Made by a program: the position numbers and the translations under genes. A stretch of 64,000 bases of DNA from Arcanobacterium sp. GTDB lineage: Bacteria; Actinomycetota; Actinomycetes; Actinomycetales; Actinomycetaceae. Each line of letters begins with the position of its first letter. The first letter of the stretch is position 1. The stretch spans positions 62,001 to 126,000 of the forward strand of contig JALFSN010000001.1 in NCBI GenBank assembly GCA_022778805.1, read 5' to 3'. Below are positions 22,049 to 47,804 of the stretch, one piece after another. The notes below the pieces were generated by a model that worked only from the letters and a program-made list of their open reading frames with translations, searched no databases and had not been told where the DNA came from.

Positions 22049-22768
22049 ATGAGCGTGCGGATTAGCCCCTCAATTTTGACTAGTGATTTTGCAAATTTGA
22101 GCGCAGAGCTGAGCAAAATCAGCAGTGCAGACTGGGCTCACATCGACGTCATGGATGGACATTTCGTGCCTAACTTGACCTTAGGCGTGCCAGTGGTGGA
22201 GTCGATTGTAGCTGCCTCGCCGCTGCCAGTGGACTGCCATCTGATGATTGACGATCCTGATCGTTGGGCGCCGCAGTACGTCGAGGTGGGAGCTCGTTCC
22301 GTCACGTTTCATGCGGAAGCGGCACATGCTCCGATCCGTCTTGCGCGTGAGATTCGCTCTATGGGAGCTCGCGCTGGTCTCGCCGTCAAACCTACGAGCG
22401 CTATCGAGCCATATTTGGAGCTCCTCGACGAGTTCGACATGCTTTTGATTATGACGGTGGAACCTGGCTTTGGCGGCCAAAAGTTCATCGAGCAGATGAT
22501 GCCTAAAGTGCGCCGGACGCGCGAAGCGGTGGCACGGAGCGGGCTCGATGTGTGGATTCAGGTAGATGGCGGAATTTCGCGTACGACGATTGAACTCGCT
22601 GCAGATTCTGGTGCAGACACGTTCGTGGCCGGCTCGGCGGTGTTTAATGCGCAGAGCGCCAGCGATGAGATTGCCGCACTGCGCGATGTGGCGCTCCAGC
22701 ACAGCTGCGGCAGCTCCCGTTCCTCGTTACGTGCTAAGAACGTTACTGGGCAAAACGTTGCCGAGTGA
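22049..22768 (+). CDS. rpe: Ribulose-phosphate 3-epimerase
   Basis: 239 residues; TIM-barrel enzyme that interconverts ribulose-5-phosphate and xylulose-5-phosphate in the pentose phosphate pathway. Motifs: [29 protein letters not shown] (metal-binding His and Asp), [19 protein letters not shown] and VDGGISRTT with VAGSAVF. About 20 residues longer at the C-terminus than the standard enzyme. ATG 22049 follows a GAGG ribosome binding site. It is the last gene of the fmt-rsmB-rpe block, upstream of the FMN riboswitch. Confidence 0.96.
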
Positions 22769-22846
22769 TGATGTGTCATGCTGTGTGCGGATGCATAGAG
22801 CGTGCCCGTCCTATTGCGAGGTGCATTGCGAGAGGCGAGACGCTCT

Positions 22847-22874
22847 TTGAGAAGAGAGCTGGCGGGTCTATACT
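22847..22874 (+). promoter_or_regulatory. Candidate promoter of the FMN-riboswitch operon
   Basis: TTGAGA (22847-22852) and TATACT (22869-22874) are separated by 16 bases. The predicted transcription start falls at about 22881, immediately before the first riboswitch helix, so the whole aptamer would be transcribed. Confidence 0.55.
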
Positions 22875-22887
22875 GAGGGGGCACATG

Positions 22888-23008
22888 CGTGCGCCAGGGT
22901 CAGTGAAAGTCTGAACCGGCGGTGATAGTCCGCGAACCAAAGCACTCGCTTTGGCCGATGGGGTGAAATTCCTCAACCGACGGTTAGAGTCCGGATGGGA
23001 GGCACACG
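22888..23008 (+). promoter_or_regulatory. FMN riboswitch (RFN element)
   Basis: The conserved blocks occur in the right order: GTGAAAGTCTGAACC, GGCGGTGATAGTCCGCGA, a variable stem, GATGGGGTGAAATTCCTCAA, CCGACGGTTAGAGTCCGGAT. The closing helix P1 pairs CGTGCGCC (22888-22895) with GGCACACG (23001-23008), with one mismatch. The family binds FMN and normally switches riboflavin synthesis or transport genes off when FMN is plentiful. A terminator hairpin follows directly. Confidence 0.95.
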
Positions 23009-23039
23009 GCGTGGCAACTGCTGTTGCCGCGCACTTTTT
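23009..23039 (+). terminator. Riboswitch expression-platform terminator
   Basis: A 10-pair stem (23009-23018 with 23023-23032, one G-T wobble) with loop TGCT, then AC and five T residues (23035-23039). It begins the base after P1 of the FMN aptamer, so FMN binding would be expected to favour premature termination before the ABC transporter gene 67 bases further on. Confidence 0.85.
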
Positions 23040-23106
23040 GCTCTCCCCATGACGCCTGGCGGGCGTACGCGCAGATGCGTGATATGCAGTCGAGAGGCAC
23101 GGGGAA

Positions 23107-23868
23107 ATGAAACGAGCATCATGGGTTCCTCCACTAGTTGTGGCTGCCGTGCTGCTCGGAGCATGGGTCGTGACGACGGCATGGGGGATCGTCCCCGCTT
23201 TTGCTCTTCCCAGCCCACATATGGTGCTGCAGCGGCTCATGGCCGGTTTTACAGGAGGCTACCTGGGGCAGGCTCTGCTATCCACCGTGCGCGAGGCGTC
23301 GCTGGGCTGCGTGACGGCGGCACTAATCGGGATTCCGCTCGGCGTGGCTATCGCGCATTTTAGACTGTTCAGCGCCGCCGTCGAGCCTTACTTAGCGGCG
23401 TCTCAAGCCATTCCAGCTATTGCCATCGCTCCGCTGCTCGTCACCTGGGTGGGCTATGGCACGACGGCGATCGTCGTGCTGTGCACGATTATGGTGGTCT
23501 TTCCCGTCATCGTCTCAACTGCTGTGGGCATACGGCAGATCAGCACTGAAGTGCTGGAGGCGGCGCGCCTCGATGGAGCCGGAGGCCTCACGCTGGTGCG
23601 CCGCATTGAAATTCCGCTGGCGGGGCCAAATATCATGGCAGGTCTGCGCACCGGATTTACCTTAGCCATGACGGGCGCCGTCGTGGGAGAGATGGTGATT
23701 GGCGGGGAAAGAGGACTTGGCATCGAGCTTGTGAGCGCCCAGCACGTGAACGATGTCCCTGGCATGTTTGCCACGATTACTCTGCTGGCCGTGGTGGCAG
23801 TTGGGATTTATCTCGTGCTGCGCATCTTGGAAAATATTGTGCTCGCAGCCACTCAAGAGGCGGCCTAG
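23107..23868 (+). CDS. ABC transporter permease, predicted riboflavin importer (RibX-like)
   Basis: 253 residues with about six membrane segments and the BPD-type permease EAA loop (EAARLDGAGGLTLVRRIEIP LAGPN, about residues 155-180). It resembles SsuC/ThiX/TauC-type permeases. Because it is the first gene behind an FMN riboswitch and is followed by a THI5/NMT1-type binding protein, I assign it to the predicted RibXY riboflavin transporter type. No ATP-binding protein gene is adjacent. GAGAGG 9 bases before the ATG is the probable ribosome binding site. An alternative substrate (a thiamine precursor or sulfonate) is made unlikely by the riboswitch. Confidence 0.85.
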   Translation: MKRASWVPPLVVAAVLLGAWVVTTAWGIVPAFALPSPHMVLQRLMAGFTGGYLGQALLSTVREASLGCVTAALIGIPLGVAIAHFRLFSAAVEPYLAASQAIPAIAIAPLLVTWVGYGTTAIVVLCTIMVVFPVIVSTAVGIRQISTEVLEAARLDGAGGLTLVRRIEIPLAGPNIMAGLRTGFTLAMTGAVVGEMVIGGERGLGIELVSAQHVNDVPGMFATITLLAVVAVGIYLVLRILENIVLAATQEAA

Positions 23869-23869
23869 T

Positions 23870-24070
23870 ATGAACTTCGCCGGTGAATCTTCTGCGTCGA
23901 TATATCGGTGCATACCGCTCACTATCCCGTATGCCGATGCCGCCCTCGTGAATATCAACGTCGCATCTGCACGCACCGACGTCGCACCGGCGCTCACAGC
24001 GGTCATGAGGCACAGATATCGCTCATCGGGTGAAGCGCCATGCGCCAAGCTAAGCGCCATTATGCAGTGA
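23870..24070 (+). CDS. Possible small ORF between the permease and binding protein genes
   Basis: 66 codons starting one base after the permease stop, with AAGAGG about 9 bases upstream. It contains CIPLTIPYADAALVNINV but no motif I recognise and no ATPase feature. It may be a small coupled protein, the decayed remnant of a lost gene, or chance. Confidence 0.25.
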   Translation: MNFAGESSASIYRCIPLTIPYADAALVNINVASARTDVAPALTAVMRHRYRSSGEAPCAKLSAIMQ

Positions 24071-24078
24071 AAATTGAC

Positions 24079-24116
24079 AGACCTCATGTAATGAAAAAAG
24101 ACCTCATGTAATGAAA
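24079..24116 (+). repeat. Two tandem 18-bp direct repeats upstream of the binding protein gene
   Basis: AGACCTCATGTAATGAAA occurs at 24079-24096 and again at 24099-24116, period 20 bases. The second copy ends 18 bases before the ATG at 24135. It may be a slippage product or a protein-binding site. Confidence 0.6.
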
Positions 24117-24134
24117 TACGGAGAAAGGAACACC

Positions 24135-25160
24135 ATGAAAAAGTGTATGAGCAAGACTCTGGCACTCCTCGGGGCAGGATTGCTCGCGTTAGCTGGCTGC
24201 AGTGACGCTACTGTACCGGCGGCGCACAGTGGCTCTGGCGAGGCCTCACCTGCTGACAATGCCTCCATAACGGTTGGTCTCACGTATGTGCCAGATGTTC
24301 AATTTGCGCCGCTCTATGTGGCTGCAGAAAAGGGATACTTCACCAAGCACGGCGTGAACGTCACACTCCGTCACCACGGCGCACAAGAGTCGCTGCTCGG
24401 GGCGCTTGCAGCAGGGGAGGAAGATATCGTCTTTGCCGGTGGAGATGAAATGCTCCAGGGGCGTTCCACAGGGATTGACGTGGTGAACTGGGCGACGATG
24501 TACCAGCGCTATCCTGCAGTGCTGATTGTGTCGGAAGATTCCGGCGTCACCTCGTGGGAGGATATGGCTGGAAAAACTGTCGGCTTGCCTGGAGAATACG
24601 GCGAGAATTATTATGGCCTGCTCGCAGCCCTCAAAGATCACAATTTAGAGGGCAAAGTGACTGTGAAATCCATTGGATACACGCAGACGGCAGCTGTGCA
24701 AAACAAGCAGGTGGATGGCGTCATCGGGTTTGAAAATAACGACGTCATCGCCATGGAAAATGCCGGCCTGAAAGTGCGTGTTATTCCGCTCGTCTCGGGG
24801 GATCTGCCGCTGATCGGAGTGGGCTTTGGTTCGTTGAGCACCAATATCCGCCCGCAGGTGTACAAAGAATTCTTAGCAGCCGTGTATGAGGGCGTACAGA
24901 GCGCAAAGCAGGATCCTGAAGCGACGCTGACCATCACCGCGAAGCAGGTGCCATCGCTCACTGACCCTGACAAACGTGCCGTGGCGAAGAAAGTGTTGGA
25001 TGCCACCTTGAAGCTCTATGAGGGAAGCAGTACTTTTGGCCAGCAAGACGGCGCAAAATGGGATGCCATGGCACAGTTTATGCTCGATCAAGGACTCATC
25101 AAACAGGCCGTACCGGCAAAAGAGGCATTCACCACTGACGTAGTTTCAGCCCAGGAGTGA
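24135..25160 (+). CDS. ABC transporter substrate-binding lipoprotein, predicted riboflavin-binding (RibY-like, THI5/NMT1 family)
   Basis: 341 residues from ATG 24135 with AGAAAGGA upstream; ATG 24111 is rejected because the signal peptide begins MKKCMSKTLALLGAG. The lipobox is LALAGC, so the mature protein is anchored on the outer face of the membrane at that Cys, acylated in part by Lnt (33067). The body shows the NMT1/THI5 pattern: VGLTYVPDVQFAPLYVAAEK, GAQESLLGALAAGEEDIVFAG and AGKTVGLPGEYGENYYGLLA. Co-regulation by the FMN riboswitch points to riboflavin as ligand. Related proteins bind thiamine precursors or nitrate, so the ligand remains inferred. Confidence 0.85.
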   Translation: MKKCMSKTLALLGAGLLALAGCSDATVPAAHSGSGEASPADNASITVGLTYVPDVQFAPLYVAAEKGYFTKHGVNVTLRHHGAQESLLGALAAGEEDIVFAGGDEMLQGRSTGIDVVNWATMYQRYPAVLIVSEDSGVTSWEDMAGKTVGLPGEYGENYYGLLAALKDHNLEGKVTVKSIGYTQTAAVQNKQVDGVIGFENNDVIAMENAGLKVRVIPLVSGDLPLIGVGFGSLSTNIRPQVYKEFLAAVYEGVQSAKQDPEATLTITAKQVPSLTDPDKRAVAKKVLDATLKLYEGSSTFGQQDGAKWDAMAQFMLDQGLIKQAVPAKEAFTTDVVSAQE

Positions 25161-25198: not shown

Positions 25199-25462
25199 AT
25201 GAAGACTTTTGACCAACTCTTTGAAGAGCTTTCAGATAAAGCGACAACCCGTCCCGTGGGTTCTGGCACCGTGAACGAACTCGATGCCGGAATCCACGCT
25301 ATTGGAAAGAAAATTGTGGAAGAGGCCGGAGAGGTGTGGCTTGCGGCTGAATACCAGAGCGATGATGAACTCGCTGAAGAAGTATCGCAGTTGCTCTATC
25401 ACGCGCAGGTGATGCTGCTGGCGCGAGGGCTCACACTCGCTGACGTCTACCGCTATCTTTAG
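25199..25462 (+). CDS. hisE: Phosphoribosyl-ATP pyrophosphatase
   Basis: 87 residues, standard size for the stand-alone enzyme. It performs the second step of histidine synthesis. MazG-like four-helix motifs are visible: [15 protein letters not shown] (metal-binding EEAxE) and [22 protein letters not shown]. Together with hisG downstream it forms the hisE-hisG pair that in many actinobacteria sits apart from the other his genes and next to the riboflavin region. Confidence 0.95.
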
Positions 25463-25603: not shown

Positions 25604-26449
25604 ATGTTGCGCATTGCCGTACCGAATAAGGGATCACTGTCCGAGCCAGCCATCTCGATGCTCAAGGAAGCTGGTTACCATCAGCGGCGCTCCACCAGGG
25701 AACTCTCTTTTCGTGACGACGAAAACGGCGTGGAGTTTTTCTACATTCGTCCTCGTGACGTCGCCGTCTACGTCGGTGCTGGCACCGTCGATGTGGGCAT
25801 CACCGGCCGCGATTTACTGCTAGATTCGGGGGCCCACGCCGTCGAACACCGCCCACTTAACTTTGCCCGTTCAACGTTCCGCTTTGCCGCTCCTGAGAAT
25901 ACGGCTCGCAGTGTGCGCGAGCTAGACGGAAAACGGATTGCCACCTCCTACGACCACCTGCTCACCACCTACCTTGCTGCGAAAGGGGTGAACGCCGAGA
26001 TCGTGCACCTCGATGGAGCAGTGGAATCATCCGTTCGCTTAGGAATTGCCGACGCGATTGCAGACGTCGTAGAAACGGGCACGACGCTGCGGGCAGCGGG
26101 TCTGGAGGTCTTTGGCGATCCATTGCTGACGTCTGAAGCTGTACTCATTCGCCGCGATGGTGCTGACGTGACGCGGGAGCTGCAGATTCTCGACGGTCGA
26201 CTAGAGGGCGTCATTATGGCACGTTCGTACGTGGTGATGGACTACGATTGCCACCAAGATTTACTGGCGCAAGCAGTTGAGGTGGCTCCAGGGTATCAAA
26301 GCCCGACGATTTCTCCGTTGCATGAGAAAGGTTGGTTTGCGGTGCGCACCATGGTGGAGCGGGCGAAGATGAACGCCGTCATGGATGAGCTTCACGCTCT
26401 TGGAGCTCGCGGGATTATCGTGACGCCGATCCTCACATCTCGCATCTGA
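25604..26449 (+). CDS. hisG: ATP phosphoribosyltransferase, long form
   Basis: 281 residues from ATG 25604 (MLRIAVPNKGSLSE), with GGGAGAGAG upstream; the upstream start at 25553 is rejected. First step of histidine synthesis. Visible: GTVDVGITGRDLL, the PRPP-binding region AIADVVETGTTLRAAGLEV, and a C-terminal regulatory ACT-like domain (about 210-281) ending GARGIIVTPILTSRI, typical of the histidine-inhibited long form that needs no HisZ. Confidence 0.96.
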   Translation: MLRIAVPNKGSLSEPAISMLKEAGYHQRRSTRELSFRDDENGVEFFYIRPRDVAVYVGAGTVDVGITGRDLLLDSGAHAVEHRPLNFARSTFRFAAPENTARSVRELDGKRIATSYDHLLTTYLAAKGVNAEIVHLDGAVESSVRLGIADAIADVVETGTTLRAAGLEVFGDPLLTSEAVLIRRDGADVTRELQILDGRLEGVIMARSYVVMDYDCHQDLLAQAVEVAPGYQSPTISPLHEKGWFAVRTMVERAKMNAVMDELHALGARGIIVTPILTSRI

Positions 26450-26517: not shown

Positions 26518-29034
26518 ATGGCACAAGGACGGCGCAAGCAGCAGCGGGGACGAACTGCGGCTGTCGCTGCACACGATCTCCCAGGCCACCGCAGGTTTGG
26601 CTTAAAAATGGCTCTGCGCCACAGCCCATTGTCGCTCACGGAGATTGTGGATGACGTCCCCGTCTATCGTCATCTCGGCGAGAATATGGCTCGTGAGGCG
26701 GTGAAAGAGACTGTGCGTGCAGACATTGCTACTCTGCGCGCCGGAGGAGATCTCATTGATTACCACAGGCGTGAGAGCGATCATGAGTACGCCTATCACC
26801 TCGACGATTCGGCCACTATCGAGGTAGATACCAGTGGGCTCAATCTGGCTTTGCTGCTGCCGCTGCTCGATTTTAAGGGGCGCTCGCAGCCGGAAGTCTT
26901 TGCACAAATCGGGGTGCGCAGAGCTTTGGAAGCTGGCCAGCGGGGCGCTGAGAGCGATGAGATCACTGCCCGCCGACCACTGATCGCCACTGTGCCTCGC
27001 GGACACTTCGCTCCAGTGGTGGCGACTGCTATCCAACATCACGATCTCATCGCTTTTAGCTATCAAAGTCTCAGCCAGTCCCAGCCCTCCGAGCGGCTGG
27101 CTAGACCGCTAGCTCTCGAAGTACACGGGGGCGAATTCTATGTGCGTGCCATCCCATGCGATGCGGACACAGCAGATGTGGATAACGGCATGGCAAGCAC
27201 AGAGGACATGGCAAGTACAGAGGGCGCAAAAGGCACGGCGAACGAAGCGGACAATACAGCGCAGAATACAGCAGGCATAGAGAACGCAGGGAGCACAGAT
27301 AGCCCGAAGCAGCGCAGCGGCGAATACGCTTCAGCCCAATCTGAAGTGAATAAGTCTGAGCCGGACAGATCTGAACTGCTCGGATCTGAGGCGCGGCTGC
27401 GCACGTATAAAGTGGCGCGCATGGAATCGTGTGACGTCGTACCCGCTGCGCAGTCTCATTGCCGAGACTGCGCAGATCAGCACTCCGCCCTCGCCGCAGA
27501 GGTAGATTCTACAGAGAAGACTTCCGCAGAAAAGGCTTCCAGGCAGAAAACTCGCAGCGCCACTGCAGCATCATGGTTTGCACCCATCACGGTGATATTT
27601 GCAGTGCGCCCTGGTACCTGTGCTCCGCTCGTAGCTCGCAGCGAGCGCTGCGTGTGGGATGAGACAGACCTCCCGATAGCTGAGCACTGCAGCACCTCCA
27701 CATGGCAGCATTATTGCCTGCGTGACGTCGATCCACTCGCGTTTTTAGAGGAGTGCGCCTTCTATGGAAGCGATATGCGCGTCCTCGCTCCAGTGAAGTA
27801 TGCACATGACATTCTCAGGCGTTTAGAGCACGCTGCGCGTATCGTGGCGCCATCGCCGCCGCTCCCGTCCCCATCCTCGTCCTCGCAGCCATCATCACCT
27901 GCGTCACCGACACCAGCGTTGCCAACCGCTCCCGCAGAATCTGCTCATGCACGAAGGTCTGCCCCGATCGTGCCGACCGGTAAAAGCGTGGATGCTAGCG
28001 TGCCGCGCCGCGAATCATATTTTACGTATTTACTACGCCACGGCCCTGCTACCCTCGGAGAACTGGCCGAGCATTTTTCGCTGACTCCGCTCACGGTGCG
28101 CCGCGAATTGCGCGATCTTTTCACTACTGAGATTGTGATTGATGGCCAGCCACAGGCTCCCTACGATCTCGTGATGCCGCCGTGGGAAGAGGGAGAAGCT
28201 ATTAATACAGCGTGGGTTATAGAAGCCCACGGGCATGGAACGGCGGAAAAAGACAGCCACTATCCGACGGCGAGTTTCACGTTTGCGGAAGTGATAGCGC
28301 TACTTGGTGCTATCGATTCGCTGCTGGCCGTGGCCATCGGAGATCACCAGCGGGCTTTGCTCGATATGCGCACAGTATTTACTCAGGCTGCAGCGGAATC
28401 TGGCTATGCGGACGCCATGTGGGCGCCGCCCACTGCCCGCTTTTCCCCGACGATAGCGGATGCCGTTTTCAGCGCCATCGAGCGGCGTAACGCCGTCACT
28501 ATCTGCTACTGGCAGGCCGCAGCAGATGGCACAGCCGGCTGCCAGCATATACGAGTCCGGCCGTTCGCCGTCGATCCAGGGATGAATCCGCTGCTAGTGG
28601 CAACTGGTGACGACGGCATCATACGCACTTTTCGGCTGGATCGGATCTCTGCAGTCCTGCCCACAGATGAATACTCGACGAAAATGGTGGTGCGCAGCTG
28701 GGCACAACAGTATCGGAGAGCACCACGGCATTTTACGGGTACGCAGATACACCTCGTGTGCGCTCCGCGTGCGCGATGGGTGCTAGAAGAGATCCCCGAA
28801 TCCCACATAGAAGCAGATGTAGACATCGGAGAAACGGGTGAGGATACGGACACTCACACCGGCGTGGGCAATCAAGCACATGTGATATCTCTCAGTGTAC
28901 ACAACGTGCAGTGGTTGCGAACCTTGCTCGTGCGGCTTGGCCGTGATTGTTACGCTGTATATCCCGCTTCTATACGGGCGCAGCTGGCTCCCGCGCTGAC
29001 CGCAATCGTGCAGGTTTATCATGGAGAATCGTGA
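26518..29034 (+). CDS. pafBC: PafBC fusion: WYL-domain transcriptional activator of the DNA damage response
   Basis: 838 residues, equal to fused PafB and PafC plus linkers. The N-terminal half has a winged-helix region (residues about 20-110) and a WYL domain (AIQHHDLIAFSYQSLSQSQ, RLARPLALEVHGGEFYVRAI). The second half has its own HTH (YLLRHGPATLGELAEHFSLT) and a WYL domain (ERRNAVTICYW, IRVRPFAVDPGMNPLLV, RTFRLDRISAV). PafBC in mycobacteria activates LexA-independent DNA repair genes. Long low-complexity linkers (about 220-300 and 440-490) with short repeats (MASTED, SEPDRSE, PSPSSSSQPSSPASP) separate the domains. No proteasome or pafA gene, and no tatA/tatC (usual neighbours), are present here. 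Confidence 0.85.
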   Translation: MAQGRRKQQRGRTAAVAAHDLPGHRRFGLKMALRHSPLSLTEIVDDVPVYRHLGENMAREAVKETVRADIATLRAGGDLIDYHRRESDHEYAYHLDDSATIEVDTSGLNLALLLPLLDFKGRSQPEVFAQIGVRRALEAGQRGAESDEITARRPLIATVPRGHFAPVVATAIQHHDLIAFSYQSLSQSQPSERLARPLALEVHGGEFYVRAIPCDADTADVDNGMASTEDMASTEGAKGTANEADNTAQNTAGIENAGSTDSPKQRSGEYASAQSEVNKSEPDRSELLGSEARLRTYKVARMESCDVVPAAQSHCRDCADQHSALAAEVDSTEKTSAEKASRQKTRSATAASWFAPITVIFAVRPGTCAPLVARSERCVWDETDLPIAEHCSTSTWQHYCLRDVDPLAFLEECAFYGSDMRVLAPVKYAHDILRRLEHAARIVAPSPPLPSPSSSSQPSSPASPTPALPTAPAESAHARRSAPIVPTGKSVDASVPRRESYFTYLLRHGPATLGELAEHFSLTPLTVRRELRDLFTTEIVIDGQPQAPYDLVMPPWEEGEAINTAWVIEAHGHGTAEKDSHYPTASFTFAEVIALLGAIDSLLAVAIGDHQRALLDMRTVFTQAAAESGYADAMWAPPTARFSPTIADAVFSAIERRNAVTICYWQAAADGTAGCQHIRVRPFAVDPGMNPLLVATGDDGIIRTFRLDRISAVLPTDEYSTKMVVRSWAQQYRRAPRHFTGTQIHLVCAPRARWVLEEIPESHIEADVDIGETGEDTDTHTGVGNQAHVISLSVHNVQWLRTLLVRLGRDCYAVYPASIRAQLAPALTAIVQVYHGES

Positions 29035-38602: not shown

Positions 38603-40786
38603 ATGCAGATGAAAAAAATAGCGGCCGCGTTTGCGGCGTGCGCCGTGAGCATTGCTGGCGCATGTATTTTACCTGCAGCGGCAATAGCTGATGACGGCGC
38701 GAAGCCCACGACTGCGGTGGAATCAGGAACATTGACGTGGGGCGTCAAAGATTCATTCCGAAACTACATTATGAACTTCGCGGTATTCAAAGGGCGCACC
38801 ACCGCCATACCTCCTGCTGTGATCAATCCAGCTTCAGCAGCAGCGGAGAATGCGAAAGAACATGCGATCCTCGATTATCCAGTGACGCCTGGAACGGAAT
38901 ATCAGGGGGACCCTGCAGGAACGCTCGCGGCCACTGGAGCAGTACATTTCCAGTCTCATCCCGATAATGCCGGTGGATACATTCTCGACCTCACCTTCAG
39001 CAACCCGCAGGTGACGATTTCCGATAAATCGGCCACACTATCCGTAGAAGCCAAAGGATATAAATTCGTCAGTATGACGGAAAAAGGCCCCTTTAAGAAT
39101 TATGGCCGCGTCGATATTGCCCACTTTGGATCAGCTGTTTCCCAGCGTACTGGCGATACTGTGACTGTTCATCTCACCTCTGGAACACTGACGAAAACTG
39201 GCGCTTCAGCATTCGGTACGTTCTATGAGGCAGGGACACCTCTCGACGACGCCACCCTCGTGCTCAAGGTGAAAGACAAGGCTCCGAGCGAAGCAAACCC
39301 GAATGCTCCTCACGAAAATGCTGGCGAATCCGCTTCAGAGAAACCTGGCACTGGCGAGGGATCCGCAAGCGAAACTAGCGAGACTGGCAGTGCGAATCCT
39401 GGCGGCGCAGACGTGCATACACCATCGGCTACTGCTCCCGCGAGCAATCTTGCCTGGGGATTCAAAGAATCATTCCGCACATATATCGTCAATAAGTGGG
39501 CAGCTGGGACGCAAACGCTCTCGGGTGGTGCCACCGACTCTCAGGGACGATCAGGAGCTATTCGTGACGCCGTCACGGAATATCGTTTCCCGCTGTCTGC
39601 TGATCAACGCATCGATCTCGCAGCTGTGAGCACAATTCATTTTGATGGAAGCGTCACTTTCACAGCACACGCAGGAGCGATGAACGAAACGCTTAAGGAT
39701 TTTCAGCTGGTGCATGACGCTTCTGGATGGCACCTTGTAGCAACCGTCACTCGGCATGACGGCGTGACGACGACGGACACATTTGTCACCTTTGACACTG
39801 ACCCTACAATCAGCACTGCTGCAGATGGGACGGCTACGCTGACTTTTGCTGCAGGCACTGTGAAAGCTGCTCAACTCGTGGAAGATACATTTGGAACGCA
39901 CTACAAAGCAGGGACGGAACTCGATCCTCTCACTGTGACGTTGGCGCCTGAGAATCAAGCGAAGCCAAGCTCTGTGCAGCCAGAACGTCAGCCGAATGAA
40001 GCTGGGCAGACGCCAGGTGCTGCTTCACCCAACAAGAGTGACGGGAAGACTCTCTCCTCCACCCCGAAAGCGCAGCCCAAGGCACAACCAACAATTGATA
40101 CAACGAAGAAATGCGTCGTCAGCGGCAGCTTGAACTGGGCAATTAAAGATTCTTTCAATTCTTACGTACAGTCGAGCATCGCGCATGGATCTATCACGTT
40201 GTCAGGGGTGAGCGGAAAATTCACCTTCCCTATCAGCGGAGGAAAGTTCGATACGAAGGCCAAGCAAGGCACGTTCTACTACAGCGGGTCAGTGCACTAT
40301 AGCGGGCACCAAGGAGTGCTTGACGTCACCGTTAGCAATCCGATATTGGAAGTGAATGGCACGTCTGGCGTGCTGTATGCCGACGTCAAGACCTCGGATA
40401 TGTCGGGCAATAAGAAGACGCTCGGGCGGGTAGCTTTTGCGGACGTCGCATTCAGCCGCGTGTCGGTGCTCGATTCCAGCTTTGCCCTGGAAGCCTCGTC
40501 CGTGACGCTCACGGCTGCCGGCGCCCAGTCTTTTGTCGGCTTCTACTCTGCTGGCCAGCAGTTGGCGCTACTGTCTTCGCAAGGATCAGTGCAGAACTGC
40601 CAGTTTGTTGATAAGAACGGCACCGTGATGGAACGCGATGCCTTTGGCAGTACGCATGAGGCGTCTACGCTCGCCGCTACTGGAGCGCAGACCGTGACGT
40701 CCACTGCAGCTGCTGGATTAATAGCGGTCGTTGGCGTGGCCCTCGTGGCTCTGGCTCGGCGCAGAAAAGCTGACGAGCTACTATAG
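38603..40786 (+). CDS. htaA: Cell-wall heme-binding protein with three HtaA domains
   Basis: 727 residues. A signal peptide (1-29, cut after AAAIA) is followed by three HtaA domains at about 40-225, 280-450 and 503-665. Each keeps the SF..Y heme-ligand motif (DSFRNYIMNF, ESFRTYIVNK, DSFNSYVQSS) and the following His (FQSHPD, FTAHAG, YSGHQG). Disordered Pro/Glu/Ser linkers separate them. The C-terminus has LAATGA, a hydrophobic helix and RRRK, a sorting signal of the LAxTG class used by class E sortases. The family captures heme from host hemoproteins and passes it to HmuT. AAAGGA precedes the ATG; the operon is controlled by the DtxR box. C. diphtheriae HtaA has two such domains. Confidence 0.92.
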   Translation: MQMKKIAAAFAACAVSIAGACILPAAAIADDGAKPTTAVESGTLTWGVKDSFRNYIMNFAVFKGRTTAIPPAVINPASAAAENAKEHAILDYPVTPGTEYQGDPAGTLAATGAVHFQSHPDNAGGYILDLTFSNPQVTISDKSATLSVEAKGYKFVSMTEKGPFKNYGRVDIAHFGSAVSQRTGDTVTVHLTSGTLTKTGASAFGTFYEAGTPLDDATLVLKVKDKAPSEANPNAPHENAGESASEKPGTGEGSASETSETGSANPGGADVHTPSATAPASNLAWGFKESFRTYIVNKWAAGTQTLSGGATDSQGRSGAIRDAVTEYRFPLSADQRIDLAAVSTIHFDGSVTFTAHAGAMNETLKDFQLVHDASGWHLVATVTRHDGVTTTDTFVTFDTDPTISTAADGTATLTFAAGTVKAAQLVEDTFGTHYKAGTELDPLTVTLAPENQAKPSSVQPERQPNEAGQTPGAASPNKSDGKTLSSTPKAQPKAQPTIDTTKKCVVSGSLNWAIKDSFNSYVQSSIAHGSITLSGVSGKFTFPISGGKFDTKAKQGTFYYSGSVHYSGHQGVLDVTVSNPILEVNGTSGVLYADVKTSDMSGNKKTLGRVAFADVAFSRVSVLDSSFALEASSVTLTAAGAQSFVGFYSAGQQLALLSSQGSVQNCQFVDKNGTVMERDAFGSTHEASTLAATGAQTVTSTAAAGLIAVVGVALVALARRRKADELL

Positions 40787-40813
40787 CTCTCCGGCGATCG
40801 GAGTATGAAGAAT

Positions 40814-40846
40814 GGTGTGTGGGCAGTATTCCCCTGCCCACACACC
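40814..40846 (+). terminator. Hairpin after the htaA-like gene
   Basis: A perfect 13-bp stem, GGTGTGTGGGCAG with CTGCCCACACACC, and a 7-base loop, 28 bases after the stop codon. No T-run. It may terminate or attenuate read-through from htaA into hmuTUV, giving more HtaA than transporter. Confidence 0.65.
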
Positions 40847-40847
40847 G

Positions 40848-41002
40848 GTTACTTCCCCGCTCTTTTCCTGCCTCTTGCTTCCCTGTGCGATATTTCTATC
40901 CGCCGCTGCGGCCTCCGTCAGGGCCTCTATAACTTTCTTCTCTGTCTTTGATTATCTGCGATTTTCTCTCCTGTATTTATTTCCTCTGTATTTATTTATC
41001 TC
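40848..41002 (+). other. Pyrimidine-rich leader upstream of hmuT
   Basis: About 150 bases in which the plus strand is strongly C/T-biased, ending with a direct repeat CTGTATTTATTT (40971-40982 and 40986-40997). No gene. The stretch would form an unstructured U/C-rich leader of the hmuT mRNA. Confidence 0.5.
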
Positions 41003-41020
41003 ACGAAAAGATTATTCTTC

Positions 41021-42109
41021 ATGTTTTATCGCGTATTTCACTGGAATTTCTTGCGGCTACCGCTGGCACTCATGGCAAGCGTCGCGCTGTTAGCATCGTG
41101 CGCTACTTCGCATTCCCCCGATACTGCACAGTCCTCTTCACCTTCTGATTCCACGGCAAGCAGTGCATCGCTCCCCGATCCGCGCACATTAACGGGGCTA
41201 TCCGTGGTGGAATCTCTGGGTGACCCAACGCCGATCAGCGGAACGTTCACGCCACGGTTGCCAGCATCGATTACCGACGTACAGGGGAATGCCGTCACCG
41301 TCACAGACACGTCTCGAATACTTCCCCTCGATCTCACTGGCAACATTTCGCGTACGCTTATCGCCCTGGGTTTAACTGATTCCATCGTTGGTCGCACTGT
41401 GAGTTCTACCGAGACCGCGCTGGAAAAACTTCCCGTCGTGACGGAGAATGGGCACTCTATCAATGTGGAAGCTGCCTTGGCATTGCACCCCACGTTAGTG
41501 CTCACCGATCTGTCTGTCGGGCCGGTAGAGGCTTTTGACCATATGCGCGCCTCCGGTATTCCCGTCGTAGTGCTCGATTCCAAGCACTCATTGAGCACGG
41601 TAGAAGCGAGCATTCAGGCGATTGGTGATGCGGTGGGAATGGGCGAAGCCGCCCAGGCATTGGGCAAACGTACTCGTGCAGAGGTGGATAAGGCACAAGC
41701 CCAGATAGCTCAATGGGCGCCCAAAAATCCGCTGAATATCGCATTCTTGTATGTGAGAGGTACCGCTGGGGTGTTCTTCATCCTCGGCTCAGAAGAGGGA
41801 ACGTCGTCACTCATTGAAGGTGTGGGAGCGAAAGATATCGCCACTGCCAATGGAATTACGTCCACGACTCCAGCTAGTGCTGAAGCGCTGCTCAAAGTCA
41901 ATCCCGACGTGTATTTCACGATGAGCGGAGGGCTGGAGTCTACGGGCGGTCTCGATGGTCTCCTCTCCCACCCAGGGGTATCAGACACGTCGGCTGGCCA
42001 GAAGCAGCGGGTGATCGCCATTCCCGATGGCATGTCGCTCTCATTCGGGCCGCAAACTGGCGAGGTACTGTTGGCGGTAGCTCGCGCTCTCTACGGTGTA
42101 CAGGAGTGA
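41021..42109 (+). CDS. hmuT: Heme ABC transporter substrate-binding lipoprotein
   Basis: 362 residues with a signal peptide and lipobox LLASC (Cys near residue 27). The TroA/FepB-like fold typical of hemin-binding proteins follows an unstructured Ser-rich linker: GRTVSSTETALEKLPVVTENG, INVEAALALHPTLVLTD, and the C-lobe MSGGLESTGGLDGLL with VIAIPDGMSLSFGPQTGE. It accepts heme from HtaA and delivers it to HmuUV. The ATG at 41021 has only a weak A-rich ribosome binding site. Confidence 0.92.
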   Translation: MFYRVFHWNFLRLPLALMASVALLASCATSHSPDTAQSSSPSDSTASSASLPDPRTLTGLSVVESLGDPTPISGTFTPRLPASITDVQGNAVTVTDTSRILPLDLTGNISRTLIALGLTDSIVGRTVSSTETALEKLPVVTENGHSINVEAALALHPTLVLTDLSVGPVEAFDHMRASGIPVVVLDSKHSLSTVEASIQAIGDAVGMGEAAQALGKRTRAEVDKAQAQIAQWAPKNPLNIAFLYVRGTAGVFFILGSEEGTSSLIEGVGAKDIATANGITSTTPASAEALLKVNPDVYFTMSGGLESTGGLDGLLSHPGVSDTSAGQKQRVIAIPDGMSLSFGPQTGEVLLAVARALYGVQE

Positions 42110-42118
42110 TGCCACCAT

Positions 42119-43168
42119 ATGTCGTTTTCCCACGATTGGCGTACCCGCAGACGCTGCATATTGCTGTGCGTGTTCGTCTTTTTACTCATCGGATTTGTCG
42201 TCTTCTCTATCGCTCACGGCCAGTTCACTATCGCTTTTCTTGACGTCCTGCGCGCGCTCGGATATCCGCTCGGCTTATCTCCTGAGCCGTCGGATCCGCT
42301 CATCGTATCGACTCTGTGGAATATTCGCCTTCCGCGTATTGCATTAGGAGCACTGGTAGGGGCGTCGCTAGCCGCGGCAGGCGCCGTCATGCAAGCTGTT
42401 TTCTCTAATCCACTCGCGGAACCGGGAGTGATTGGGGTGTCAGCGGGAAGCGCAGTGGGAGCATCGTTAGCTATTGTGTGCGCGCCATATGCCTTAGGTG
42501 GGTTTAGCGTTCCTCTCGCTGCATTTATCACGGGTCTGGGAGCTGCTTTTCTCGTCTATGTGCTGTCCTCACGCGCTGGAAAAGCGGAGCCGCTCACTCT
42601 GGTGCTCACGGGCATTGCGCTCACGGCAGTTGCAACTGCATTGACGTCGTTCGTCACGTATATCGCTCCCACCACGGCACGTGATCAGATCGTCTTTTGG
42701 CAGATGGGATCGCTTGCCAGCTCATCGTGGCAGCGCGCCGGCATCGTGGCCATCGTGAGCGGCGTCGGCTTGCTCTGGGCGGTGGTGATTGCCAAAAAAC
42801 TCGACATTCTCGCCCTCGGAGATGAGCCAGCCACCCACGTGGGGGTGAACGTCAGGGCGATACGTATGAGTGCTATTGCACTCTCAGCACTGCTCACTGC
42901 TGCAGCAGTAGCCTATGCGGGGGTCATTGCATTTGTTGGCTTGATTGTGCCGCACGTGGTACGCATCGTCGTGGGTCCGCTCAACCAGTATCTCATCCCA
43001 TTCTCGATGCTGGGAGGAGCACTTCTCATTACGATGGCCGATCTTGCAGCGCGCACATTGATCCCCTTTGCTGATCTTCCCATCGGAATTTTTACAGCTC
43101 TCGTGGGTGGGCCAAGTTTCTTTATCATTCTTCGCTACAGCACCCGCAACCTCAGGAGTGTGCAATAA
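42119..43168 (+). CDS. hmuU: Heme ABC transporter permease (FecCD family)
   Basis: 349 residues with about ten membrane segments. Family motifs: LRLPR-type segment NIRLPRIALGALVGASLAAAG, SNPLAEPGVIGVSAGSAVGA, and IAFVGLIVPHVVRIVVG near the C-terminus. AGGAG lies 12-16 bases before the ATG at 42119. Starts 9 bases after hmuT and ends 2 bases before hmuV. Confidence 0.93.
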   Translation: MSFSHDWRTRRRCILLCVFVFLLIGFVVFSIAHGQFTIAFLDVLRALGYPLGLSPEPSDPLIVSTLWNIRLPRIALGALVGASLAAAGAVMQAVFSNPLAEPGVIGVSAGSAVGASLAIVCAPYALGGFSVPLAAFITGLGAAFLVYVLSSRAGKAEPLTLVLTGIALTAVATALTSFVTYIAPTTARDQIVFWQMGSLASSSWQRAGIVAIVSGVGLLWAVVIAKKLDILALGDEPATHVGVNVRAIRMSAIALSALLTAAAVAYAGVIAFVGLIVPHVVRIVVGPLNQYLIPFSMLGGALLITMADLAARTLIPFADLPIGIFTALVGGPSFFIILRYSTRNLRSVQ

Positions 43169-43170
43169 GA

Positions 43171-43941
43171 ATGAGTATTCTCGAAGCGCGTCACGTCGTC
43201 TTCCGATATGGGAAGCGATCGATTCTCTCCGACGTGAGTCTCTGCGCCGATCGGGGGAAGATGATCGGACTGCTCGGCCCCAATGGAGCTGGAAAATCAA
43301 CTCTCTTAAAAGTTCTCTCCGGTGATCTTATCCCCTCATCAGGTACGGTACTCATCGACGGTCTCCCCCTAGCGAGTTACTCGCGTGCCTCTCTCGCTCA
43401 GATGCGCGCCGTCATGCCGCAGTCATCAACTTTTCCGTTTGCCTACCTCGTGCGCGATATCGTCGCTATGGCACGTACAAGTTGGGATACCAGCCGCGAG
43501 TACGACGAACAGCGCGTAGCTCAAGCCCTGGACGACACGGGAATCACGCACCTGCGTGAGCGTGACGTCACGACACTATCTGGCGGAGAAAAGGCCCGCG
43601 TCACACTTGCTCGCGTCATTGCGCAAGAATCCACAGTCGTGTTTCTTGATGAGCCTACTGCTGCGCTAGATATCGCCCATCAGGAGCGCACAATGGAACT
43701 GTGCCGTGAGCTCGTGGCACAAGGATGTGCACTCGTCGCAGTGATGCACGATATCTCCTTAGCTGCGGCTTACTGCGATCAGCTGTGCCTGCTAAGCGAC
43801 GGTGAGATAGCTGCTATGGGAGATCCGAGCGACGTCCTCAAAGACGATATTCTATCGACCGTCTACCACTGGCCGATCTCAGTACACCGCAGTGGAGGTG
43901 AATGGTTGGTGCAGCCGCGACGCACAGCGTCAGTATGCTAA
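43171..43941 (+). CDS. hmuV: Heme ABC transporter ATP-binding protein
   Basis: 256 residues. Walker A GPNGAGKSTLLKVLSG, Q-loop MPQSSTFPF, signature TLSGGEKARVTLARV, Walker B TVVFLDEPTAALD and H-loop VMHDISL are intact. It powers HmuTU. Third gene of hmuTUV. Confidence 0.93.
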   Translation: MSILEARHVVFRYGKRSILSDVSLCADRGKMIGLLGPNGAGKSTLLKVLSGDLIPSSGTVLIDGLPLASYSRASLAQMRAVMPQSSTFPFAYLVRDIVAMARTSWDTSREYDEQRVAQALDDTGITHLRERDVTTLSGGEKARVTLARVIAQESTVVFLDEPTAALDIAHQERTMELCRELVAQGCALVAVMHDISLAAAYCDQLCLLSDGEIAAMGDPSDVLKDDILSTVYHWPISVHRSGGEWLVQPRRTASVC

Positions 43942-44044: not shown

Positions 44045-44191
44045 GCATGTGTGAGCGCATTGGTTCTCCATGTACAGACGCAGCTCACACGACTCACGCG
44101 ATCAACACAGCTAGCCCACTGCGATAGCGCAGCATGGTACATCTACTGCCATCACACGAAAGAGAATACCCAAGACGAGGAGAGAGCTCAC

Positions 44192-46042
44192 GTGATACGA
44201 CGTTCTCACAATTCGCACACGACCGCTGCAATGTCCCATTCGGAGCATCGAGCGCAGCGGCGCAGCACACCCCAGCGTACGCCTCATGGCAGTACTTCTC
44301 TGCCGCTGCACGCTCCTGCGCCACCTGCCCCGCCAGTGCGGGTCATATCGCGGCAGGGGCAAAAAGCGACCGTAGCAGTGGCGGCATTGTCAGTGCTCAG
44401 CTATATATCAACTGGCGTCGTCTTGGTGCTCTCGGCTCATCTTCTCGCTGATAATGCACTCGGACTTCCTCTGCGCCACGGCTATGTGTGGGGAATCGTC
44501 GTAGGACTCGTTGCCGCATGCACCTGCGCAGTGCTGGATATCACTACGGGGGCGCGGGAAGCGCGCAAAGAAGAACAGCGCATTCGCACTCGCGTGTTGC
44601 GTTCCCTGTACGAGCACACGACGATGTCCATTCGAGATGAAGCTGATTTCCAGCCGGCACAGATCGTCACGCTCATGAACGATAACGCCGAGAGACTCAC
44701 CGAATACCGCCAAGCCTATCTGGGCTCTGCCCTGGCAGCTTTCAGTATTCCTTTTATTTCCATCGCCTATATCACCTGCGCTATCGATTGGGTACTCGGC
44801 GTGGGAATGCTGCTGGGCTTCGTGATGGTTCCCATCCTTTTCCTTGCGTTTATGCGCTATTTTCGCAAGCGGAGTTCCGCCTTTCGCCGTCAGCGAGCCA
44901 CGCTCTCATCAAAGTATCTCGACGCTATCCGCAATCTTACGACGGTCAGCCTCATCGGAGCTGGCGAGCGCATCGAGCGTGATTTGCGCGCTGAAGGAGA
45001 GCGTAACCGCGGGGCGATTATGCACATTCTCGCTGGCAACCAGCTCGTCATTATCGTGGTCGATTTCTCGATTTCGCTGTTTATCTTGTGCCTAAGCATG
45101 TGGTTGCTCACTGTGCGTATCGCTGCGGGAGCGATTGCTCTTCCTGGAGCTTTAAGTGCGGTGTTTCTTTTGGTGCTGATCGTGGCACCAGTGACGACGG
45201 TAGCAGGCTTTATGTATGTGGGGATGGGAGGCATCGCAGCGCAGAAAGCCATCAAGCGCTATCTAGCTACTCACGGACATGCTACCGGACAGGTATCCGG
45301 ACACACATGCGTAGATGCCGTCAGCGAGAACGCGCCGCAGCTGCGTCACGGCGAAGAAGAAAGGCAGACAACTGCTCCCCTCGCTGTGCGCGTCGATCAT
45401 GTGAATTACAGTTACGGCGAGCACCACGTACTTCACGATATTCACATGTATGTACCGCAGGGTGCAAAAGTGGCTATCATCGGGCCTTCCGGTTCGGGAA
45501 AGTCCACCCTCATGAATATCTTGCGCGGTCTGCTGCCGCTGCAAACGGGTGCGGCTTATCTAAATGAGTGCAATCTTGCCACCGAACGTCTCAGCACAAT
45601 TCGCCAGGCATCTGCATCTGTGGCACAGAGAACGTGGCTCTTTACCGGAACTATTGCCGACAATCTGCGTTTTGCGCGCGCTGAGGCGAGCGATCGCGAT
45701 CTTTGGGAGGCTCTCGAACGCGCCCAGTTAGCTGACGACGTGCGTGCTATGCCGCAAGGTCTCGCAACTGACGTGGGCGAACGTGGCGCTTTTCTCTCAG
45801 GTGGGCAGGCGCAACGTCTCGCACTGGCGCGTGCTTTCCTCTCTCAACGCACCGTTCTTCTCCTCGATGAGCCGACATCTCACGTCGATCTTGAGTCGGA
45901 GAACCTCATTATACAAGCCATCAAAGAGATACCATCCACCATCACAGTCGTGATGGTCACCCATCGACAAGCACTGCTCGTGGCGGCTGATACAACATAC
46001 GTGATGAACGCAGGCACACTTCAGGAGGCACACAATGATTAG
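44192..46042 (+). CDS. Heterodimeric ABC exporter subunit, CydD-like
   Basis: 616 residues from GTG 44192, chosen because GAGGAGAG lies 7 bases upstream; the frame is open back to a GTG at 44051. A basic, Pro/Ser-rich N-terminal segment precedes an ABC membrane domain with about six segments (approx. 60-340) and a nucleotide-binding domain: Walker A GPSGSGKSTLM, signature LSGGQAQRLALARAF, Walker B VLLLDEPTSHVD, H-loop VTHRQ. CydDC in other bacteria supports cytochrome bd assembly and has been linked to thiol and heme transport. No cydAB is in the window; the neighbours are heme genes. Overlaps the next gene by 8 bases. Confidence 0.8.
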   Translation: MIRRSHNSHTTAAMSHSEHRAQRRSTPQRTPHGSTSLPLHAPAPPAPPVRVISRQGQKATVAVAALSVLSYISTGVVLVLSAHLLADNALGLPLRHGYVWGIVVGLVAACTCAVLDITTGAREARKEEQRIRTRVLRSLYEHTTMSIRDEADFQPAQIVTLMNDNAERLTEYRQAYLGSALAAFSIPFISIAYITCAIDWVLGVGMLLGFVMVPILFLAFMRYFRKRSSAFRRQRATLSSKYLDAIRNLTTVSLIGAGERIERDLRAEGERNRGAIMHILAGNQLVIIVVDFSISLFILCLSMWLLTVRIAAGAIALPGALSAVFLLVLIVAPVTTVAGFMYVGMGGIAAQKAIKRYLATHGHATGQVSGHTCVDAVSENAPQLRHGEEERQTTAPLAVRVDHVNYSYGEHHVLHDIHMYVPQGAKVAIIGPSGSGKSTLMNILRGLLPLQTGAAYLNECNLATERLSTIRQASASVAQRTWLFTGTIADNLRFARAEASDRDLWEALERAQLADDVRAMPQGLATDVGERGAFLSGGQAQRLALARAFLSQRTVLLLDEPTSHVDLESENLIIQAIKEIPSTITVVMVTHRQALLVAADTTYVMNAGTLQEAHND

Positions 46043-47804
46043 TGACGACGCGCGCACCTCCACTCTATCCTCCACATCCGGTGATTCTGCCCCCGTGTCG
46101 GTGCAGAGCGCTGCGCCAAGCACCACGTCGATACGCACCGTTTTGCCGTGGATTCTCGGCGTGACTCGGCCAGTACATGCGCCGCTGTACTTCTCAACGC
46201 TCATGCGCATCGTCGAGCTGAGTTTGAATGTGGTGCTGTTCGGTTTTCTCATGCGAGAGGTACTGACGCTGGCTTTTGACCCTGCTCATGAAGCACTGCT
46301 ACGCGTCGTCGGTATCATCCTCGCTATAGCGTGCGTGAAAGCACTCGCCTACTATCTAGAGCAATTTTCTGGGCATTTTGTCGCATTTAAGGCTCTAGAA
46401 CTGCTGCGGGCACGAGCCTTTGCCAGTCTATGGCCTAAAGCGCCAGGGGTGCTGCGACATGCGACCTCTGGCGATCTCATCGCCTCCCTCACGAGGGATA
46501 TTGACCGTATTGAAGTGCTGTATGCACACACACTAGCACCCGTAATAGCGGGCATTATCGTACCGCTAGGACTGGGGGTGAGCTGTGCTCTCATATGGGG
46601 CTGGCACATCGCTTTGCCAGCTTTCATATGCTCGATGCTTTCAGCGTGCGTCGTTCCGCTGATTGGGTTCCAATCCTCCCTTGCATCCACTAGCGAATCG
46701 CTACTATCTCGCCGCCGTCTCTTGCAGCACGTGACGGATTCCGTCTTTGGCGCCGAAGAAGTTGTGAGCTATGGACGGGAAGCGGAACGCCTGGAAGAGA
46801 TGAGCCATATTGATGTGGATATTCGCCACGGTTACGCGCGCCCTAGCCGCTATCGAGCACTGCGCCGAGCCGCTAATATCATGCTCACGTACAGCGCGAT
46901 CGCCTTGACGGTACTCATCGGTATTGGCACTCACACATCTCCAGAAATCATTGCTTTTATAGCCGGTGGCTGCATGGTTCTCTTTGACGCCCCTCGCGGA
47001 TTGGAAGATGCCGTTGGAGCCTTGGATCATTCTCTTGCTGCCGCTCGCCGGCTCTACGATATCTGCCATATTCCGGCATTAGTCGATGACGGTCCGCATG
47101 AACTTCCACCGGCGTCCGCCCATCGAGACTCTTCGCTGTCACCGACACATTCTGATGGCGATTCTCTCGGCGTGCGGTGGGATCACGTGAGCTATGCCTA
47201 TCCAGATGCACGGCGTACACCCGTCCTTCACGATTTTTCTGCCGAAGCTCCAGCAGGAAAGCACACGCTGATAATTGCTCCCTCCGGCTCTGGAAAATCA
47301 ACAGCTGTGCAGCTGCTCGTCCGTTACGACGATCCAACATCAGGCACGGTCTATCTCGGTGATTCTCCCGTGACGGACTATACGCTCACGTCGTTACGGC
47401 GCTCTGTGGCTCTCGTTCCGCAGCGGCCTGAACTTCTCAACACAACTATTCGAGATAATCTCCTGCTGGCAGCTCCAGACGCTACCGAATCCGAACTGTG
47501 GCAGGCGCTAGCTCTCGCCCATATCGACGATGACATTCGACAGATGCCCGCTGGCCTCAATACTCCTACTGGAACGGAAGGCTCTGGCCTTTCGGGAGGA
47601 CAGATGCAACGGTTGTGCTTGGCACGTGCCCTGCTCACATCACCGCGCGTACTTGTGCTCGACGAATTCACTGCAAACGTCAATAGTGAACTGGATGAGG
47701 CGATTCATCGCTCTTTGCAGCAAGCGCTCCCCCATCTCACCATTATTGAGATCACTCATCAGCGAGATATGTGCAGCCGTGCCGATCACGTGATTGAGCT
47801 CTAG
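46035..47804 (+). CDS. Heterodimeric ABC exporter subunit, CydC-like
   Basis: 589 residues. About six membrane segments (50-330), then a nucleotide-binding domain: Walker A APSGSGKSTAVQLL, Q-loop VPQRPELL, signature GLSGGQMQRLCLARAL, Walker B VLVLDEFTANVN, H-loop ITHQRD. The usual DEPT...D reads DEFTANVN here: Pro is replaced by Phe and the D-loop Asp by Asn, so this half-site may be of reduced activity, as is common in heterodimeric exporters. Translationally coupled to the CydD-like gene. Heme, thiols or a siderophore are possible substrates; context favours heme or iron. Confidence 0.8.
   Translation: MISDDARTSTLSSTSGDSAPVSVQSAAPSTTSIRTVLPWILGVTRPVHAPLYFSTLMRIVELSLNVVLFGFLMREVLTLAFDPAHEALLRVVGIILAIACVKALAYYLEQFSGHFVAFKALELLRARAFASLWPKAPGVLRHATSGDLIASLTRDIDRIEVLYAHTLAPVIAGIIVPLGLGVSCALIWGWHIALPAFICSMLSACVVPLIGFQSSLASTSESLLSRRRLLQHVTDSVFGAEEVVSYGREAERLEEMSHIDVDIRHGYARPSRYRALRRAANIMLTYSAIALTVLIGIGTHTSPEIIAFIAGGCMVLFDAPRGLEDAVGALDHSLAAARRLYDICHIPALVDDGPHELPPASAHRDSSLSPTHSDGDSLGVRWDHVSYAYPDARRTPVLHDFSAEAPAGKHTLIIAPSGSGKSTAVQLLVRYDDPTSGTVYLGDSPVTDYTLTSLRRSVALVPQRPELLNTTIRDNLLLAAPDATESELWQALALAHIDDDIRQMPAGLNTPTGTEGSGLSGGQMQRLCLARALLTSPRVLVLDEFTANVNSELDEAIHRSLQQALPHLTIIEITHQRDMCSRADHVIEL

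Follow-up and report, generated by a model that had tools for sequence, protein, structure and literature searches.

A putative FMN-riboswitch-controlled RibXY riboflavin importer between rpe and hisE in a predicted riboflavin auxotroph of the Actinomycetaceae

Analysis of a 64,000-nucleotide stretch of an Arcanobacterium sp. genome (hereafter, the window) revealed a locus between rpe and hisE that very probably encodes a riboswitch-controlled RibXY riboflavin importer, in an organism predicted to be a riboflavin auxotroph. The transporter type is already known; the locus adds to it a predicted dependence on the vitamin that extends across nearly the whole family. RibXY was described in the Chloroflexi in 2013 (PMC3766115). 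According to a 2015 study (PMC4418817), an E. coli delta-ribB strain grows again at low riboflavin when given RibXY of Chloroflexus aurantiacus, RibY of the same organism is cited as flavin-binding, and the transporter is widespread; Table 2 of that paper, as we read it, includes Actinobacteria carrying RibXY, some with and some without the biosynthesis pathway. Its starting criterion for RibXY was an identity of at least 38% over 80% of C. aurantiacus RibY. The occurrence of RibXY in both prototrophs and auxotrophs is also stated in PMC6593275.

The ribXY locus and its leader

All features of this locus, including its flanking genes, lie on the forward strand of the window. The leader of ribXY contains an FMN riboswitch aptamer (22886–23010), which matched Rfam model RF00050 over its full length (model positions 1–138) with 90.6 bits (E 2e-19), well above the gathering score of 66.2, and which confirms the RFN element of the original prediction. 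This was one of two matches in the Rfam scan of the window and the only RF00050 copy found in the genome, where the search revealed no second FMN riboswitch. At the 3' end of the aptamer, an intrinsic terminator (23009–23039) constitutes the putative expression platform, with a 10-bp stem (23009–23032), a 4-nt loop and the sequence ACTTTTT after the stem (T run at 23035–23039); its predicted folding energy is -19.5 kcal/mol (z -3.95), a value equalled in none of 200 shuffles. Comparison with the relative G002 revealed a compensatory C-G to T-A change in the stem.

When evaluated by one simple criterion, such a hairpin accompanied 14 of 35 ribXY riboswitches; among other riboswitches it was present in 1 of 29, and among control stretches in 18 of 190. 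The "perfect terminator platform" originally proposed fits this genome and its close relatives G002 and G005, but as a family-conserved trait it was rejected on these counts. Since, by this criterion, the terminator accompanies only a minority of ribXY riboswitches, control in other ribXY loci may work on translation. Upstream of the aptamer, a promoter-like element, TTGAGA-16-TATACT (22847–22874), was recognised as a consensus match only, with 11 nt between the end of its -10 and the aptamer. Four promoter-like sites occurred in the 3-kb region versus 1.6 in shuffles, and sites of this kind were found upstream of 13 of 64 riboswitches versus 4 of 64 control stretches. As judged from the sequence, the promoter-like element and the terminator right behind the aptamer would suit an FMN-off switch acting by termination. 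A regular expression for RFN elements, which recovered 27 of 51 known ones, was excluded from all counts, and the RFN marks that it set in loci L124–L203 are incomplete.

The two genes behind the leader correspond to the permease and the THI5/NMT1-type lipoprotein of the original prediction. The ribX gene (23107–23868) encodes an ABC permease of 253 aa (PF00528, 96.1 bits) belonging to the taurine/sulfonate/thiamine-precursor type (BPD_transp_1), and ribY (24135–25160, with a possible alternative start at 24111) encodes an NMT1/THI5-type substrate-binding lipoprotein of 341 aa (PF09084, 114.1 bits). They are separated by 266 bp (23869–24134), an interval exceeded in none of the 32 other loci measured, which contains a 66-codon open frame, a TTGACA hexamer (24074–24079) and, just before ribY, a 17-bp direct repeat (24080–24096 and 24100–24116). 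The lipobox cysteine of RibY, Cys22, is invariant in 33 aligned RibY sequences; a larger alignment of 56 sequences (A2) has 27 invariant columns, and a GLTY.P..QF.P.Y stretch and an RHHG motif are invariant or nearly so.

A motif search identified no ABC ATPase gene adjoining ribXY in the window. A BPD_transp_1/COG0600-type permease beside a COG0715/NMT1-type binding protein, behind an FMN riboswitch and with no ATPase gene in the operon, is the arrangement of the Chloroflexi RibXY loci; unlike these, the locus described here occupies the rpe–hisE interval of an Actinomycetaceae genome. As with RibXY of Roseiflexus castenholzii, the transporter would take the place of an absent rib operon. A scan of named genomes yielded 290 RibY-like places, and among the best 80 the nearest was in an Actinomycetaceae MAG (82% identity), several of the next-nearest were in Arcanobacterium and Trueperella, others were in Propionibacteriaceae, Georgenia, Occultella and Streptomyces, and none was in the Chloroflexi.

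Riboflavin genes and transporters in the family

The genome (1.99 Mb in 10 contigs, 99.82% complete) was searched for the biosynthesis genes, and no match was found to lumazine synthase (ribH), riboflavin synthase (ribE), ribBA (searched by its DHBP synthase part) or ribD (RibD_C), while the FAD synthase gene ribF is present (148 bits). The same searches were positive in 14 of 14 control genomes for ribH, ribBA and RibD_C and in 11 of 14 for ribE, and the absences are strong but not absolute in a genome of 10 contigs. The RibU and PnuC/RibM families were also searched without a match, leaving ribXY as the sole riboflavin transporter recognised. By this gene content, with the four biosynthesis genes missing and ribF and a transporter present, riboflavin auxotrophy is predicted for the organism, as had been originally proposed; the vitamin may come from its host or community, as was also suggested there. 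An assembly gap hiding the rib genes of a prototroph that has an extra importer would accord with the 10 contigs and with the existence of five family members holding both systems, but we consider it extremely improbable in view of the completeness of the assembly, the concurrent absence of matches to four enzymes of one pathway, and the single-contig relatives, such as G009 (100% complete), that also gave no ribH, ribE or ribBA match.

The survey was extended to 59 genomes, 37 of them from the family (this genome, nine of the same genus and 27 others) and 22 from the same order. Thirty lack a ribH match, namely 28 of the family and two of another family (G038 and G054), the latter two with no ribE or ribBA match either. 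A transporter behind an FMN riboswitch was found in all 30, ribXY in 28 and ribU in the other two. In both ribU loci (L060 of G038 and L061 of G054), the riboswitch is followed by an ECF component of the RibU type and by a large ATPase protein. An orthologue of ribX lies behind a riboswitch in 33 of the 37 family genomes; 28 of the 37 carry only ribXY, five carry both systems, four carry only a rib operon, and none carries neither. In one of the ribXY genomes (G005), a contig end cuts the locus after ribX, and a RibY-like match is located on another contig. Within the family, ribXY and ribH are inversely associated, with a Fisher p of 0.0019 when kinship is ignored. An rpe tree, built from the 37 genomes of the family plus 10 of the remaining 22, provided three independent pairs differing in ribXY, too few for significance (median p 0.25); averaged over 200 pairings, ribH went the opposite way in 2.7 of the three pairs and showed no difference in 0.3. 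Natural comparisons are offered by close relatives that have both systems, by those that have the importer only, and by those whose rpe–hisE interval is emptied while they hold a rib operon. In G045, where ribXY is present and neither ribE nor ribBA gave a match, a ribH-like match (C42:17978-18372) is broken by an in-frame TAG; it is perhaps a remnant of a decaying pathway or the product of a contaminated bin (6% contamination).

The ligand of RibY is predicted to be a flavin on the basis of the FMN riboswitch and this co-occurrence. The solved structures closest to the RibY profile are 3ix1, a thiamine-precursor binder (E 4e-28), 4nmy, an unassigned binding protein, and THI5 (4h65), and RibY is related by profile to the binding proteins of ThiXYZ (ThiY) and to THI5. 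This kinship, together with the membership of RibX and RibY in the taurine/sulfonate/THI5 class and the mention, in PMC4418817, of homologues controlled by TPP, ykkC or T-box elements, would agree with the import of another compound, such as a thiamine precursor or a sulfonate, with flavin entering through an unrecognised transporter and the riboswitch coupling uptake to flavin status. We regard this as very unlikely, since an FMN-riboswitch transporter is present in each of the 30 genomes without ribH, ribXY, the rib operon and ribM alternate in a single slot under one class of riboswitch, and the Chloroflexus transporter rescues a riboflavin auxotroph. Unlike ThiXYZ, whose operon includes an ATPase gene, ribXY is preceded by an FMN riboswitch and, by motif search, has no adjoining ATPase gene.

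As a riboflavin importer, the system would work as follows. RibY, held by its lipidated cysteine, would capture riboflavin or another flavin outside the cell and RibX would pass it inward, the import cycle being driven by an ATPase encoded elsewhere; RibF would then convert the imported riboflavin into FMN and FAD. Plentiful FMN would bind the nascent leader, the terminator at 23009–23039 would form and ribXY would be switched off; when FMN is scarce, transcription would read through and import would rise.

The rpe–hisE slot and the history of the locus

The position of ribXY between rpe and hisE-hisG, noted in the original prediction, was supported by Pfam matches for all three genes: rpe (22049–22768; PF00834, 244.3 bits) forms the left border of the slot, hisE (25199–25462; PF01503, 42.9 bits) the right border, and hisG follows (25604–26449; PF01634, 150.3 bits). 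Among the 33 ribXY loci of the family, rpe is the next upstream marker in 28, and rpe and hisE-hisG both flank the locus in 19. The claim that a rib operon behind an FMN riboswitch lies beside rpe in other actinobacteria also held, with such an operon in this same slot in seven genomes of other families (G039, G040, G049, G050, G052, G057 and G058; split over two contigs in G049). The slot operons of G039, G040, G052 and G057 include a ribM-like gene. In three further genomes of other families (G041, G046 and G051) the slot holds ribM alone, and in G048, also from outside the family, it holds ribXY. RibM/PnuX and, in G038 and G054, ECF-RibU are also found behind FMN riboswitches in order-level relatives; both belong to protein families unrelated to RibXY.

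The slot is empty in three of the four family genomes that have only a rib operon. The distance from rpe to hisE is about 53 bp in G003 (L234), 49 bp in G015 (L235) and 127 bp in G020 (L236), and neither ribX nor ribY gave a match there. The rib operon of these three genomes is located elsewhere; a riboswitch precedes it in G003 and G020, and no riboswitch match was found for that of G015. In the fourth, G036, rpe is present and no hisE or hisG match was found in the 9 kb fetched.

It had been proposed that the biosynthesis genes were replaced while the riboswitch was kept. The part of this claim concerning the slot stands, the same place holding a rib operon in other genomes. In its strict form, in which ribXY displaced the rib operon here in one step and the original riboswitch stayed as its leader, the proposal would be in keeping with the rpe–riboswitch–rib operon–hisE–hisG order of the seven genomes, with the three slots containing ribM alone, and with the mean identity of the ribXY riboswitches, which reaches 82.4% with the riboswitches of slot rib operons versus 79.8% with those of rib operons elsewhere (81.3% among themselves). 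We consider the one-step replacement rather unlikely, as six genomes contain, apart from a riboswitch-ribXY locus, a rib operon at another place that is preceded by a riboswitch as well (G001, G012, G017, G022 and G031 of the family, and G048), and the riboswitch tree does not separate an aptamer kept in place from one that travelled with ribXY. In three of the six (G001, G017 and G048) ribXY is located between rpe and hisE, in G022 and G031 only hisE-hisG adjoins it, and in G012 the neighbourhood is rearranged; the two riboswitches of G031 are 9.7 kb apart.

With both systems together in these six genomes, import and synthesis coexisted; import was probably gained first, and the loss of the rib operon probably followed. 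Early in the family, ribXY would have entered the rpe–hisE slot or its vicinity while a riboswitch-controlled rib operon lay elsewhere; afterwards, the rib operon would have been lost in most members of the family, and the riboswitch-ribXY cassette in a few that hold the rib operon.

The two lumazine synthases of G003 and G015 share 66% identity. Their identity with the enzymes of the 22 remaining genomes in the RibH tree is 34–45%, and the tree separates the pair from these with full support; five of the 29 ribH-positive genomes (G044, G045, G047, G051 and G056) are outside this tree. Compared with solved structures, the G003 enzyme scored 234.6 bits with 4v7g, 220.6 bits with 1rvv, which we take to be the Bacillus subtilis enzyme, and 90.0 bits with 1w19, presumably from Mycobacterium tuberculosis. 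The riboswitch of G003 has a long branch too. This pattern fits an uptake of the rib operon from a Bacillus-like donor and a loss of the ribXY cassette in G003 and G015, a direction and order of events that we infer.

Candidate ATPase partners and other features of the window

In the fetched stretches, the motif search revealed no importer-type ABC ATPase in ribXY operons. Among the 80 fetched RibY loci, searched up to 5 kb on each side and less in some, the only ATPase-like frame was a divergent one in L152, a locus apparently of the G025 organism. ATPase frames near ribXY were noted in G022, beside a second, divergent NMT1-type system, in G025, where the frame is divergent, and in G029, where it is UvrA-like. 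The genome of the window itself contains, on contig C5 (L092:6111-7942), a second NMT1-type binding protein and permease, encoded convergently and 21–26% identical to RibY and RibX; no ATPase frame was found by this system in a 15-kb stretch.

Searches of 11 genomes with the NtrCD model TIGR01184 gave no match above its cut-off, a threshold that says little, since the control, a TauB/SaoA-like ATPase of G020 (L217) adjoining the NMT1 system of that genome, scored 145 bits only. As the matches were listed down to about 102 bits, an ATPase of the TauB/SaoA-like type should show among them. RibY is the only NMT1-type protein (E 0.001) in seven relatives (G006, G018, G019, G024, G026, G032 and G033). 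The best 6 of 42 ATPase matches in G006 were all of other types, none of them taurine/sulfonate: one UgpC-like and one that lies beside permease-like frames and has PhnT2 as its best model (the two typed with NCBIfam), and, by reading, FtsE-, MacB-, MetN- and ZnuC-like proteins. In the remaining relatives, two (G018, G024 and G032) or three (G019, G026 and G033) of the best matches were typed, and none had TauB, SsuB or SaoA as best model; this typing left out L098 of G018 (frame overlong), C1:180673 of G033 and L109 of G032. The three best matches of the own genome (177, 155 and 147 bits) had PhnT2, UgpC and EhuA/GlnQ as best models. A UgpC/MsiK-like ATPase was best or among the best in every genome typed except G018, where it was not scanned.

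The likeliest partner of RibXY is a shared ATPase of another class, and the UgpC/MsiK-like sugar-import ATPase is only a candidate for this role. Because RibY is the only NMT1-type protein in seven relatives, and the matches listed for G006 include no taurine/sulfonate type, the old open point of how RibXY is energised without an ATPase gene becomes testable. A broader proposal joins two claims: that the rpe–hisE interval of the Actinomycetales is a swap slot for FMN-riboswitch riboflavin modules (rib operon, ribM, ribXY or nothing), and that the importer of the auxotroph, a member of the taurine/sulfonate class, lacks an ATPase belonging to that class and borrows one of another class, e.g., a UgpC/MsiK-like one. 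Taken as a whole, it is offered tentatively and is more doubtful than probable. Among open-licence papers, we found none that deals with the rpe–hisE slot or with how RibXY is energised in these bacteria.

AroC and CoaBC, which the original prediction had named as flavin-dependent neighbours, are both present in the window. Downstream of hisG, an 838-aa protein (26518–29034) combines a WYL domain with a weak WCX match and is possibly a fused pair of WYL regulators. A heme-uptake-like cluster (38603–43941) encodes an HtaA-domain protein, a Peripla_BP_2 protein, a FecCD permease and an ATPase; behind it lie two ABC proteins that have membrane domains (44051–47801).
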